A stretch of DNA of 55,109 nucleotides, from positions 1-55,109 of the forward strand of contig JAJDBK010000058.1 in assembly GCA_029261405.1 (NCBI GenBank). Direction: 5' to 3'. This document shows, piece by piece, positions 3,568 to 8,479 of this stretch (the first letter of the stretch is position 1; every line of letters starts with the position of its first letter). Position numbers and translations under genes: made by a program. The notes beneath the pieces are model-generated. The model worked only from the letters and a program-made list of their open reading frames with translations. It did not search any database and was not told where the DNA came from. The stretch comes from Nitrospinaceae bacterium. Lineage in GTDB: Bacteria; Nitrospinota_A; UBA7883; JAJDBK01.

Positions 3568-4749
3568 TCATCCCGATGGCGCAACGACCACCTCTTTTTC
3601 AAAGAGTGTGTGCAGTACCGGCTCTTCATTTTCGTATCCAATTTTTACGCGCCTGTTTTCATGGAGCAGTCCATATCTTACAACAACGGAGAGGAGATAC
3701 TCACTCTTCCCTGTGGGGGCCGGAAAACTGAAATAATAATCCGCGCTCTCTTTAAACTTCAGGCGGGTATCCCAAATGTCGATGATGAACGGTCGCCAGA
3801 TCATCACCCTGTGGATGTAATTTTTCGATTCTTTCACAATTTGCCCGGCGCCATCCTTCAGAAGGAATGAAATTTCGAGCAGTCTGTCGGGAGAGCCGGT
3901 GGGAACTTTATGTTCCGAGCCTCTGTTTGTAATTCTCAGTTGAAATTTCTTCTCCGCGCTGACCGGGTCGCTCCGGTCGTCAAGCTCTATGGTCAATGCT
4001 CTTTTTACCATTTTATTGTCGTGACCACCTCGCCAGTAGTGCCTGCTCCCTCTCCTGACGGGGCCACCCTCCACGAGTTCCCTTTCGATCTTTTCCATAT
4101 GGCATTTTGCGCAATTGACAGTGTCGGAGCTATCGAAAACCTCATTGACCGTGCCACAAAGCGAAGCGCCCTGGAATATTTCGGATCTGTCGGGTGGCAC
4201 ATTATGACACGGGTCACAGACACTTTCACCGTCGGTCAACCGGTCATCTTTTTTGCTGGGATGCGCGTCGGTCTTTACACCGTAAGGACCGAGGATGACT
4301 CCATCCTTGATATGACATACTGCGCAAGTGATCCCTTCATCTTGTAGCTCCCGGCTGAATTTCGGGTTCGGAACCGTGACCGGTTCAAATTTATCCTTGT
4401 CCCGGTGGCCTGTAACCAGCCTCCTCTGCTGATTTTCCAACGGGGTGTGGCAATTCAGGCAGACCGGTTGCCCGCCATCGTACTGAAAATCCTTCTGGAA
4501 ATATGGATCAGTCCACGCTTTTGCGTGCATACTCGATTTCCACTCGTCGTAGATCACACGGTGGCAGGAGCCGCACACTTCGGCGCTTATACCTGAAAGC
4601 CCATCGGGGGTTTTTACCGACATCGGTTTTTCCAGCCATTTTGTGACGGTGAAAAATCGCATTTCACGGGTGAACCGGTACCCCAGGAAAAGGGTGATCA
4701 CCACCAAAATGGTGATTACGACCGTTCGGGGCAGTCCGCTATTTGACAT
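3568..4749 (-). CDS. membrane-anchored pentaheme c-type cytochrome
   Basis: The 393-residue protein has an uncleaved-looking N-terminal helix (about 8-24) and five CXXCH heme motifs: C59-H63, C97-H101, C142-H146, C178-H182 and C213-H217. Heme spacing and motifs such as CHxxxYDEWKSSMHA resemble the cytochrome c554 / multiheme family that carries electrons in the periplasm. The C-terminal 170 residues have no CXXCH and look beta-rich (LTIELDDRSDPVSAEKKF, ITNRGSEHKVPTG), perhaps a partner-binding domain. The electron donor and acceptor cannot be read from the neighbours (lipA, marC, pyk). The start codon overlaps the -35 region of the divergent tRNA promoter. Confidence 0.88.
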   Translation of the reverse strand: MSNSGLPRTVVITILVVITLFLGYRFTREMRFFTVTKWLEKPMSVKTPDGLSGISAEVCGSCHRVIYDEWKSSMHAKAWTDPYFQKDFQYDGGQPVCLNCHTPLENQQRRLVTGHRDKDKFEPVTVPNPKFSRELQDEGITCAVCHIKDGVILGPYGVKTDAHPSKKDDRLTDGESVCDPCHNVPPDRSEIFQGASLCGTVNEVFDSSDTVNCAKCHMEKIERELVEGGPVRRGSRHYWRGGHDNKMVKRALTIELDDRSDPVSAEKKFQLRITNRGSEHKVPTGSPDRLLEISFLLKDGAGQIVKESKNYIHRVMIWRPFIIDIWDTRLKFKESADYYFSFPAPTGKSEYLLSVVVRYGLLHENRRVKIGYENEEPVLHTLFEKEVVVAPSG

Positions 4750-4878: not shown

Positions 4879-5994
4879 TTAGAATCCTGTACGGCTACCG
4901 AGCGCCACGGGAGCCTTGGAACCTGTAACGGATAAGAGGTTCAGGCGCTCCCCTTTTTCCGAATAGTAGGCCAGGAGAGCCATCAAAGCCCCCTCCACAG
5001 CCTGAGCGGGGAAACCTGCGTTATCCGAAGTTATCACCTCTATTGCAGGGCCGGTCAGATCATCTATCCGGTTCAGCAAATAACGGTTTTTCGAGCCGCC
5101 TCCGCAGATTACCACTCTGCCCCCCTCATTTCTATCCTTGAAAAGCCTGTTGGCTTCCTTGACAATAGTGACGGCGGTAAGTTCTGTCAAGGTCGCAACC
5201 GTGTCAGCGTTATATTTATAACCTTGAGAATCAAGCCTGAACCGGGCGCCAAAAACCTCCCGACCAGTCGATTTAGGTGGACGTTTCCTGAAATATGGGT
5301 GGGACAGAAATTCTTTTAACAAACTATCGTCCACTTTCCCTGATGAGGCGATTTCCCCTCCTCTATCGTATGCGCCTTTCCCCATAGCGCCGACCGCATG
5401 GTCGATAAGCATGTTTCCGGGGCCGGTGTCGTAGGCCACGATACCATCCAGAGTTTCCGCGCCCGCCGGAATAGAGGTGATGTTGGCTATGCCACCAATA
5501 TTAACCACGGCGACATTCTTTTTCTTATCGCCGAAAAGTGGCAGATGAATCACCGGGGCGAGGGGCGCGCCCTCCCCCCCTTTTGCCATGTCAGCGGAGC
5601 GGAAATCGCTCCATACGCAGGCGCCGGTCCTTTCGGCGATTATGGCCGGATCGCCTATCTGCAATGTTCTTTTTTTCCGGGGAAGATGGTGGATTGTCTG
5701 TCCGTGGGAACCGATCAGATCGATCCGTTTTTCCTGCATGGATTGTGAGCGAAGCAGTTTATTGACCGCCTTGGCAAAAAATTCTCCGATCACTCCGTCA
5801 AGTTCGCAGACCTCCCCGGTCGATCCATTCTCACCACTGACACGCAAAAGCCGTTCTTTAAGTCTCCCCGGATAAGATAGAAAGGCGGTGGCAAGCGGGT
5901 TGATCTCTATTCTTCCCCGAACCTTGTTTATTTCACACGCGACAGCGTCCACACCATCGAGGGAAGTGCCGGACATCAGCCCCACTATTATCAA
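4879..5994 (-). CDS. anmK: anhydro-N-acetylmuramic acid kinase
   Basis: Phosphorylates and opens 1,6-anhydro-MurNAc released by lytic transglycosylases, giving MurNAc-6-P for peptidoglycan recycling. The family signature GLMSGTSLDGVDA is at residues 5-17, followed by GSHGQTIHHLP, WSDFRSADMAKGGEGAPLAP (catalytic Asp region) and the ATP-binding VVNIGGIANIT and YDTGPGNMLID. At 371 residues it has normal family length. Its start overlaps the M20 hydrolase stop by four bases (ATGA). Other recycling genes (murQ, nagZ) are not in the window. Confidence 0.96.
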   Translation of the reverse strand: MIIVGLMSGTSLDGVDAVACEINKVRGRIEINPLATAFLSYPGRLKERLLRVSGENGSTGEVCELDGVIGEFFAKAVNKLLRSQSMQEKRIDLIGSHGQTIHHLPRKKRTLQIGDPAIIAERTGACVWSDFRSADMAKGGEGAPLAPVIHLPLFGDKKKNVAVVNIGGIANITSIPAGAETLDGIVAYDTGPGNMLIDHAVGAMGKGAYDRGGEIASSGKVDDSLLKEFLSHPYFRKRPPKSTGREVFGARFRLDSQGYKYNADTVATLTELTAVTIVKEANRLFKDRNEGGRVVICGGGSKNRYLLNRIDDLTGPAIEVITSDNAGFPAQAVEGALMALLAYYSEKGERLNLLSVTGSKAPVALGSRTGF

Positions 5995-7169
5995 TCGGCA
6001 AAACTTTTTTTTACACGGACCATCAACTTTGCGTCTGTCAACAGGTCGTAAACCGTCATTGCCATAGCCTTGGTCATGCCGATCATCCCCTTTTCACCCT
6101 TTTCGCTCATAACAGCTTTAAGGAAATCGCGGGAGTGATTCACCTCATGAGGGCCTCCGATAGCGTATTCAGGGTGGAGTGTAGGAACCACCTGAGAAAG
6201 ATTACCGATGTCGGATGAGCCGATCTCTTCGGTTTCGCTGAAATTTCCCTCCGTTATGCCGAGCGTGGCAATGTTTTCCCTGAACGCCTCCCCCATTACA
6301 CGGTTCGGATAGAGGGGTAGATAAGTCAGCCCTTTGGTGGCGACCTTGAGTTTGCACCCTGTGGATTTTGCGGCGCCTCTGGCGGCGTTGATAACCTTTT
6401 CTTTCAACTCTTCAAAATAATCGACATGCAACGCCCGTATGTAGAACCGAAGCACAGCTTTTTCAGGGATGATATTAGGCGCCTCACCGCCGTGGGTAAA
6501 GATACCATGGACCCTGGCTTCATCTTTCATCTGCTGTCGCAGGCACGATACCGCATTATAAAAGAGGACTCCCGCGTCCAGAGCGTTAACCCCTCTGTCC
6601 GGGAACGCCGCCGCATGAGCGGCTTTGCCGGTAAAGGTGAACTCGATGTCTGTGATGGCGTACATCCTGGCCACCACCCTTGTTTTGTTGGAAGGATGCA
6701 CCATGATGGCGGCGTCCACATCGTTAAATACACCCGATTTAATCATCTTTATCTTGCCACCGCCCCCCTCTTCGGCGGGGGTTCCGATAACGGTTATCGT
6801 ACCGGGATGGCCTCTGAACGCATTTTTTAACGCCACTGCGGCGATGCAAGAAGAGGCGGCTATCATGCTGTGCCCACATGCGTGTCCGATTTCCGGCAAG
6901 GCGTCGTACTCGGCGATAATGGCAATGTTCGGGCCTTTTCGTCTACCTCTGCTCACTGCGGTAAAAGCTGTCTTCAGTTTCGAGGTTTTAAGCGTCACGC
7001 TGTAACCGTTCTTCTCCAGATACCCGCTGGTCAGTTCGGTGGCAAACACCTCTTCGTAACAAAGCTCCGGATTCTCAAAAAGCTCCCGGTTGATTTGACG
7101 CATGTCGGGGAGAAGGCGGTCCACCTCGTTTGCGATACTGTTTTTGATCTCCATGGCGTTCTTTGCCAT
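5991..7169 (-). CDS. M20-family amidohydrolase / peptidase (AbgB-like)
   Basis: Metal-dependent amide hydrolase of the M20D type, related to aminobenzoyl-glutamate hydrolase subunit B and other N-acyl amino acid hydrolases. Visible features are IAEYDALPEIGHACGHS (metal-ligand His), GTPAEEGGGGK (catalytic Glu), the lid-domain block FTFTGKAAHAAAFPD and the C-terminal GPHEVNHSRDF. I place the start at the ATG whose A overlaps the upstream TGA (7169), giving 392 residues. A longer frame to 7229 would lie inside the HPr-fusion gene. It precedes anmK with a 4-bp overlap, so a cell-wall or dipeptide scavenging role is possible, but the substrate is unknown. Confidence 0.9.
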   Translation of the reverse strand: MAKNAMEIKNSIANEVDRLLPDMRQINRELFENPELCYEEVFATELTSGYLEKNGYSVTLKTSKLKTAFTAVSRGRRKGPNIAIIAEYDALPEIGHACGHSMIAASSCIAAVALKNAFRGHPGTITVIGTPAEEGGGGKIKMIKSGVFNDVDAAIMVHPSNKTRVVARMYAITDIEFTFTGKAAHAAAFPDRGVNALDAGVLFYNAVSCLRQQMKDEARVHGIFTHGGEAPNIIPEKAVLRFYIRALHVDYFEELKEKVINAARGAAKSTGCKLKVATKGLTYLPLYPNRVMGEAFRENIATLGITEGNFSETEEIGSSDIGNLSQVVPTLHPEYAIGGPHEVNHSRDFLKAVMSEKGEKGMIGMTKAMAMTVYDLLTDAKLMVRVKKSFAD

Positions 7170-8479
7170 CAGAGGTTTCTGCTTATTCTGAGGTATCTCA
7201 ACTCTCGTGGCACCTCCTGGTCTTCGCAATAGTTATGCTCCGAAAGAATGGCTATATCAGCCAAAACCCTGTCGTCCCCTTCAAAGACCACATGCGTCGC
7301 CCCGGAGTCGGCCAGGGCGCCACCCGCCTCCATCATTGAAAGCACAGACCGGCAGTCGTACCGCTCACCTTCGGCCACCATGAAGACATCGGTGCCATGC
7401 TCCTGAACTATCAGCGAAACGTAGGTGGAGGGTCTGGCGTGCATACCTTGCGGTTGCGGCAGGGGAAGTTTCATCGCCACCGGGTTGACGAAAGAGGAGA
7501 GAATCCGCTCAGCCGCGGTATTTCCTTCCACCAGGAAACGTCCGCAGAATTTCAGACCATAACCGACTATACATTCGTAAAGTTTTGCGTCGTCTACCAG
7601 TTCCGATATCCGGTCCTTGGCCTCCGATTGCCTCAAAGAACTCTCGTGTCGTTCGTAAAAATGGGTGAGCCACTGCAACGATTCAAAAAGGTGCATCGGA
7701 ATCGCCGTCAGACCGCGCAACTGGCGGGTGTGCGGGTTCTCCTTTTCGATATCCCCACCCCTGATATAGGAGTCGTATTCGCTCTGGATGTTGTGCAACA
7801 GACTCTCCACCTGAGCCATCATGGTTTCATTTATTACACACGGCACAAGTTCGGTCATGGTGGTGGCCTTCAGCTTTCCTTGCAACTTGTTCTGCCGGAA
7901 ATTTTTAAAAATACGCCGGTAAGACTGGGCGACGGAGATAAGCCTCTCCTCCTCTGCGGAAGTTGCGCTCCCTTCTATGGTATAGGGAAGCTGGGGAGTG
8001 ACCGTCATGCTCCATTTTTTGGTCGGGTCCTCAGAAAACTCCGCCTCAATTCCCTCAAATCCCGCCTCCTTTAAAAGCTCTTCGTAAAAATTTATCAATA
8101 CCGAAGCGAAATAATCGAGGGTTTCGTGAGTCTTCCGTGTGAACGATTTACGCAAGAAATCGTTCTCCGCCCCCAGGTACTCCGGGTAACGATCAAGAAT
8201 ATGGAATAGATGGAACCCCGCCATGGCAAAGTTCCGGACACACGCCACAAGCTCAACGAAATAGAGCCAGGAGAGGTTGCCTCTGGCGCCATGGTCGTCG
8301 AGAAACTCCTCCAGTTTTTCCGCCTCCTGCAATAGCGTGAAATAGAAGAGGCGGTTGACCGGGCTGTCGTTTCGCTTTAGCACAGACAGAACGGAGATAA
8401 TATCCCTCGACTTCTCTTTCACCAGAGGCAGGAATTCATTCTCACTGATAATCGGTGTGAGGGATGGCGCATAACCCAT
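7169..8479 (-). CDS. unknown helical protein fused to a C-terminal HPr-like phosphocarrier domain
   Basis: Residues about 335-425 look like HPr of the phosphotransferase system. QGMHARPSTYVSLIVQ carries the phospho-acceptor histidine (H347), and RSVLSMMEAGG has a serine (S378) at the place of the regulatory Ser46. The N-terminal 330 residues are mostly predicted helix, with no membrane segment and no motif I know. Stand-alone HPr is 85-90 residues, so this is a fusion. No EI, EII or HPr kinase gene is in the window. The stop overlaps the M20 gene and the MCE gene lies 18 bp upstream in the same operon. It may be a regulatory phospho-sensor rather than a sugar-transport carrier. Confidence 0.8.
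   Translation of the reverse strand: MGYAPSLTPIISENEFLPLVKEKSRDIISVLSVLKRNDSPVNRLFYFTLLQEAEKLEEFLDDHGARGNLSWLYFVELVACVRNFAMAGFHLFHILDRYPEYLGAENDFLRKSFTRKTHETLDYFASVLINFYEELLKEAGFEGIEAEFSEDPTKKWSMTVTPQLPYTIEGSATSAEEERLISVAQSYRRIFKNFRQNKLQGKLKATTMTELVPCVINETMMAQVESLLHNIQSEYDSYIRGGDIEKENPHTRQLRGLTAIPMHLFESLQWLTHFYERHESSLRQSEAKDRISELVDDAKLYECIVGYGLKFCGRFLVEGNTAAERILSSFVNPVAMKLPLPQPQGMHARPSTYVSLIVQEHGTDVFMVAEGERYDCRSVLSMMEAGGALADSGATHVVFEGDDRVLADIAILSEHNYCEDQEVPRELRYLRISRNL

Follow-up and report, generated by a model that had tools for sequence, protein, structure and literature searches.

An HPr domain fused to an undescribed helical domain as the probable phosphate carrier of the regulatory PTS of Nitrospinota and relatives

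The gene that follows mlaD in the window (the whole 55,109-nucleotide stretch of Nitrospinaceae DNA analysed here) encodes a real and conserved fusion protein, in which an HPr domain is built onto a large helical domain (Table 1). The fusion probably serves a regulatory phosphotransferase system (PTS) of the PTS-Ntr type as its NPr/HPr-type phosphocarrier, receiving phosphate from enzyme I (EI) and passing it to PtsN, and we put the probability of this reading at roughly 0.7. The argument draws on the domain make-up, predicted fold and conservation of the protein, on its single origin, on its co-occurrence with EI and on the absence of free HPr from many of the genomes that encode it. Regulatory PTS chains link carbon, nitrogen and envelope physiology with one another, and the best known of their inputs acts on EI, through the GAF domain of PtsP. 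In the phylum Nitrospinota, which includes marine nitrite oxidisers, this relay seems to pass through a carrier that has an undescribed domain built into it, and the fusion thus offers a single gene for asking which signals the PTS reads there, or what it governs.

Table 1. Positions, in the window, of the fusion gene, its parts and the adjoining M20 gene.
Feature	Positions	Strand	Remarks
Whole fusion gene (helical domain + HPr domain)	7169..8479	(-)	436 aa, ATG start, stop codon included
Helical N-terminal domain, residues 1-330	7490..8479	(-)	Eight long helices, family undescribed
HPr domain + conserved C-terminal tail, residues 332-436	7172..7486	(-)	PF00381/TIGR01003, PDB fold
H347 codon, predicted phospho-acceptor in GMHARP	7439..7441	(-)	Alignment, AF2 model
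S378 codon, HPr Ser46 equivalent, helix N-cap	7346..7348	(-)	Alignment, AF2 model
M20 amidohydrolase	5991..7169	(-)	TIGR01891, PF01546; ATG overlaps fusion stop

The first-pass annotation, made from the sequence alone, had recognised a C-terminal HPr domain and had named its placement outside the HPr family by a fold search as the outcome to be feared. Residues 341-386 score 20.2 bits (hmmscan) and 23.4 bits (genome search) against PF00381, for which the cut-off is 23, and 26.2 bits (E 5.7e-6) against TIGR01003, under its cut-off of 47.9; PF00381 is matched by 13 of the 14 sequences of the first homologue alignment. The full-length AF2 model, built from an alignment of 79 sequences (pLDDT 91.6, pTM 0.88), gives residues 334-414 the element order of HPr, strand-helix-strand-strand-helix-strand-helix, with H347 directly preceding the helix 348-361. 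HPr, Crh and NPr proteins were the sole PDB matches at probability 1.00, with TM scores, normalised to the target, of 0.66-0.79. By its fold, the HPr domain is genuine.

According to established PTS biochemistry, EI requires an HPr acceptor. The earlier remark that no PTS genes lie near the fusion holds within the window, where nothing else was found homologous to the EI, HPr, EIIA-Man or PtsN that this genome encodes, but it does not hold for the genome (99.5% complete), whose contig C43 carries a complete regulatory PTS set, rpoN-hpf-ptsN-EIIAMan-HPr-EI, by lpt genes. EI is present in 28 of 29 fusion-bearing genomes; free HPr was not found in 10 of these and is kept in 19, the window's own genome with its divergent copy included. 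One fusion-bearing genome of 98% completeness (G012) yielded no EI and no free HPr; its assembly may have a gap, or its fusion may work without EI. Among 77 Nitrospinota genomes EI was found in 71 and free HPr in four, which belong to a single family and include no high-quality genome; among the 31 high-quality genomes the counts are 31/31 for EI and 0/31 for free HPr. The fusion passes PF00381 in 28 of the latter, the other three having been searched for it by PF00381 only. For most Nitrospinota no HPr other than the fusion was found, and, judged from sequence, it appears to be the sole one left. As a control, EI and HPr were detected in the same seven of 14 genomes.

The absence of free HPr is not merely a profile miss, since EI operons could be read that contain no HPr gene. 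Six loci (L140, L142, L143, L144, L185, L186) show the order rpoN-hpf-ptsN-EI, with a space between ptsN and EI that is too small for HPr; the gap in the ptsN-EI region of L149 is at most about 166 bases, and in L145, L150 and L187 EIIAMan is retained and HPr alone is gone. The arrangement ptsN-EIIAMan-HPr-EI is retained in L151, L159, L188 and L189. In the simplest history, lineages that had the fusion would have lost free HPr more than once, in some cases along with EIIAMan. In the window's own genome and in L140-L145, L149-L151 and L185-L189, ptsN lies in the rpoN operon and EI is present, that of L141 being a fragment; by Pfam, PtsN is intact, and the EI of the window's genome and of two Nitrospinota comprises the three EI domains without GAF. 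None of the loci read has the fusion gene inside its EI/ptsN operon. In L141 (CP070799.1, a chromosome-length Nitrospinaceae MAG) the EI at about 7219-8200 aligns over its first 70 residues only, probably through sequencing or frameshift errors.

Where free HPr is absent, the obvious acceptor for EI is the fusion, and as the sole HPr of Nitrospinota that have EI and PtsN it is most likely the working phosphocarrier. The link to a PTS relay proposed in the first-pass annotation is upheld by the same two observations, the presence of EI in nearly all fusion genomes and the status of the fusion as only HPr in most Nitrospinota. In the chain envisaged, PEP would phosphorylate EI, EI would phosphorylate H347, and the fusion would hand the phosphate to PtsN and, where present, also to EIIA-Man. 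Most Nitrospinota would have lost the ordinary HPr gene, leaving the fusion as sole carrier, and in the window's own genome it would work beside a diverging free HPr. The helical domain, using a polar site located on its helices 3, 6 and 7, would probably supply the sensory input or the output of the relay, since these EIs do not carry the GAF sensor domain of PtsP. Several observations speak against the reading: the HPr part has low profile scores and a long branch, the free HPr kept by 19 of the 29 genomes could be the one that serves EI in them, G012 has no EI match, and the fusion gene lies outside the EI/ptsN operon.

The closest known counterpart is NPr (PtsO) of the PtsP-PtsO-PtsN chain, with which the fusion shares the HPr fold with its active histidine, a genome with both EI and PtsN, the latter encoded in an rpoN-hpf-ptsN operon accompanied by lpt genes, and a role for which no sugar permease is needed. 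It differs from NPr in being fused to a 330-residue helical domain and in being encoded outside the rpoN operon, and the EI concerned differs from PtsP in having no GAF domain. Proteins of the FruB/FPr and DhaM (EIIA-HPr-EI) types, as reviewed in a 2008 phylogeny of HPr and EI (PMC2405797), also hold HPr within a larger cytosolic protein, but there the partner is a PTS domain (EIIA, EI), whereas the present fusion joins HPr to an undescribed helical domain and includes neither EIIA nor EI. Such a fusion goes unmentioned in the passages searched of that phylogeny and of a 2026 review of PTS-Ntr (PMC13104625), and in the collection of papers searched none pairs Nitrospina with HPr or phosphocarrier.

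The helical domain had been described as having no recognisable motif, and this agrees with the zero family matches obtained for the N-terminal 330 residues with Pfam and NCBIfam profiles. Modelled alone (AF2; pLDDT 92.3, pTM 0.90), it consists of helices 13-35, 43-62, 69-102, 108-141, 176-196, 218-238, 249-278 and 297-329; fold searches against PDB and BFVD gave no significant match, and hhalign found no internal duplication of the two helical halves. Near-invariant polar residues are found on helix 3 and at its start (N68, E76, R82, H93, R97), on helix 6 and at its start (E218, H229, Q232, D236) and on helix 7 (R255, H263, H273, E276, R277, H278), with a further one, D61, closing helix 2. 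The intervals between them, of three, four or seven residues, place most of them on one helix face, and we infer that they form one pocket. By profile and alignment, the domain represents a new family of protein domains, marked by a polar site that hardly varies. An identity with the CHAD (conserved histidine alpha-helical) domain was considered and rejected, as there is no Pfam match and the fold match is weak: the polyphosphate-bound CHAD structure 6qva ranks fourth in the PDB search (Foldseek probability 0.87, TM 0.30) at an E value of 0.17, which is not significant and makes the resemblance a lead only. Both have many long helices and conserved histidines and arginines, but the domain described here differs in having conserved acidic residues too; no CHAD protein was found in the 77 Nitrospinota genomes.

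Tentatively, and at somewhat less than even odds, we would go further and propose that the regulatory PTS was rebuilt in Nitrospinota and their relatives, with a new helical ligand-binding or catalytic domain on the phosphocarrier acting as sensor in place of a GAF domain on EI, and with free HPr displaced by this fused carrier nearly phylum-wide. The polar site could also be read the other way round, the helical domain being an enzyme or effector that is switched by the phosphorylation state of HPr, with the EI step in common and the relay to PtsN secondary. We consider this possible but rather unlikely. The near-invariant His, Arg, Glu and Asp residues of helices 3, 6 and 7 do resemble a site, and NPr has targets of its own, such as LpxD (PMC4635465; passages of PMC13104625); in E. 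coli it is dephospho-NPr that acts on LpxD, and NPr touches the envelope and envelope stress (PMC4635465). A candidate partner would be the M20 hydrolase, which adjoins the fusion in 26 loci, all of the window's wider clade, and is the sole neighbour kept there, with an overlapping start codon available in about half of them. However, the domain matches no enzyme family by sequence or fold, neighbours differ between clades, and where Nitrospinota have EI, PtsN and no HPr but the fusion, a relay role is indicated as well.

H347 is a histidine in 81/81 aligned proteins, across phyla at about 30% identity, so that the loss of the active-site histidine in homologues, feared at the outset, did not materialise; the HARP motif is nearly invariant (R349 in 80/81 and P350 in 81/81 sequences). 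The HPr part is more conserved than the helical part, with a mean entropy of 1.38 versus 1.91 bits. In a tree, the fused HPr domains form one clade (SH-aLRT 100), separate from the free HPrs that these genomes encode, in keeping with a single fusion event; the branch of this clade is long (2.15). It is on this branch length and on the low profile scores that one could build the case for a mere binding module, no longer phosphorylated by EI, which would act elsewhere, for example directly on PtsN, as observed for PtsP in P. aeruginosa without PtsO (passages of PMC13104625). Such a case is improbable: it sits poorly with a histidine invariant across phyla in a nearly invariant motif, with an HPr part that has changed less than its helical partner, and with the fact that the checked lineages without free HPr all carry the fusion.

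The fusion is widespread in the window's phylum and in Nitrospinota, occurs in part of the Planctomycetota and is rare elsewhere. It was found in 23/23 same-phylum relatives tested, 25 homologues were found among 60 genomes, and a scan of one genome per species gave 104 encoding stretches, of which the best 80 (listed as named loci) are nearly all from Nitrospinota, the remainder coming from Planctomycetota and from a few bins that bear the label Proteobacteria or Deltaproteobacteria. A broad sample gave the fusion in 36 of 385 genomes, mostly from the groups already mentioned, and about 58 of 294 sampled Planctomycetota genomes have a long fusion match; among viral contigs no relative was found. 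The long stop-to-stop frames preceding the planctomycete copies L104 and L107 were judged to be GC-rich frame artefacts and not extra domains. A planctomycete subgroup, with members at L174:5990-7549 and L175:6285-8036 and split matches in G188, G288, G387 and G407, has an insertion of about 70 residues in the HPr domain past about residue 390 and retains the active histidine.

As the first-pass annotation had pointed out, a serine occupies the Ser46 position of HPr, and S378 is a serine in 81/81 aligned proteins. Its further suggestion that the carrier is doubly regulated fared less well. HprK was searched for with two models, PF07475 and TIGR00679: the window's genome (G000) matched neither, a result to be taken with care since the B. 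subtilis control was also unmatched although B. subtilis has HprK, which makes the sensitivity of the search imperfect; only one of 55 genomes exceeded the cut-off (G070, where the contig also carries a free HPr with KSI). In E. coli, which is not known to have an HprK, both HPr and NPr have a serine at the Ser46 place. In the AF2 model S378 precedes the helix 379-391, at the N-cap position, and its role is likely structural, double regulation of the fusion being unlikely. Compared with Firmicutes HPr and Crh, the fusion likewise keeps both the histidine and the Ser46 equivalent, but here HprK was not found. The HPr-insertion subgroup of Planctomycetota has Ala or Phe at position 378 and keeps the active histidine. 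The free HPrs of the window's phylum (L029:9746-10021 and others) are fast-evolving, and at position 46 most of them carry Asp, His, Lys or something else instead of serine, as if those beside the fusion had become relaxed or specialised.

The gene neighbours had been given correctly as an MCE transporter (mlaE/F/D), an M20 hydrolase and anmK, to which alr and dnaB are to be added. The fusion starts 18 bases past the mlaD stop, and its own stop overlaps the ATG of M20 (TGATG, 7171-7167), so that alr-mlaE-mlaF-mlaD-fusion-M20-anmK looks like one putative operon. Yet mla and anmK are near the fusion in a minority of loci, in near relatives only; Nitrospina-type neighbours are genes for an HNH nuclease, an FAD oxidase, NUDIX, CvpA, an aminotransferase and CoaE, and in the planctomycete loci read the fusion is near a metallophosphatase and parB. 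Being lineage-specific, gene order was ruled out as a sign of mla/anmK function, and the variation between clades ties the fusion gene to no single envelope pathway: of the proposed PTS-linked sensor tied to wall recycling or lipid transport, the PTS link stands and the tie is weak. An HPr regulated by both EI and HPr kinase and dedicated to anmK wall recycling or Mla transport is thus very improbable, for the invariant S378 and the adjoining mla, M20 and anmK genes of this and some near relatives are outweighed by the HprK result (qualified as above by its control), the N-cap position of the serine and the different neighbours of most fusion carriers. Also in the window, between lipA and anmK, a gene at 3568-4749 (-) encodes a multihaem cytochrome c with MtrC/MtrF-like and cytochrome c7-like matches.
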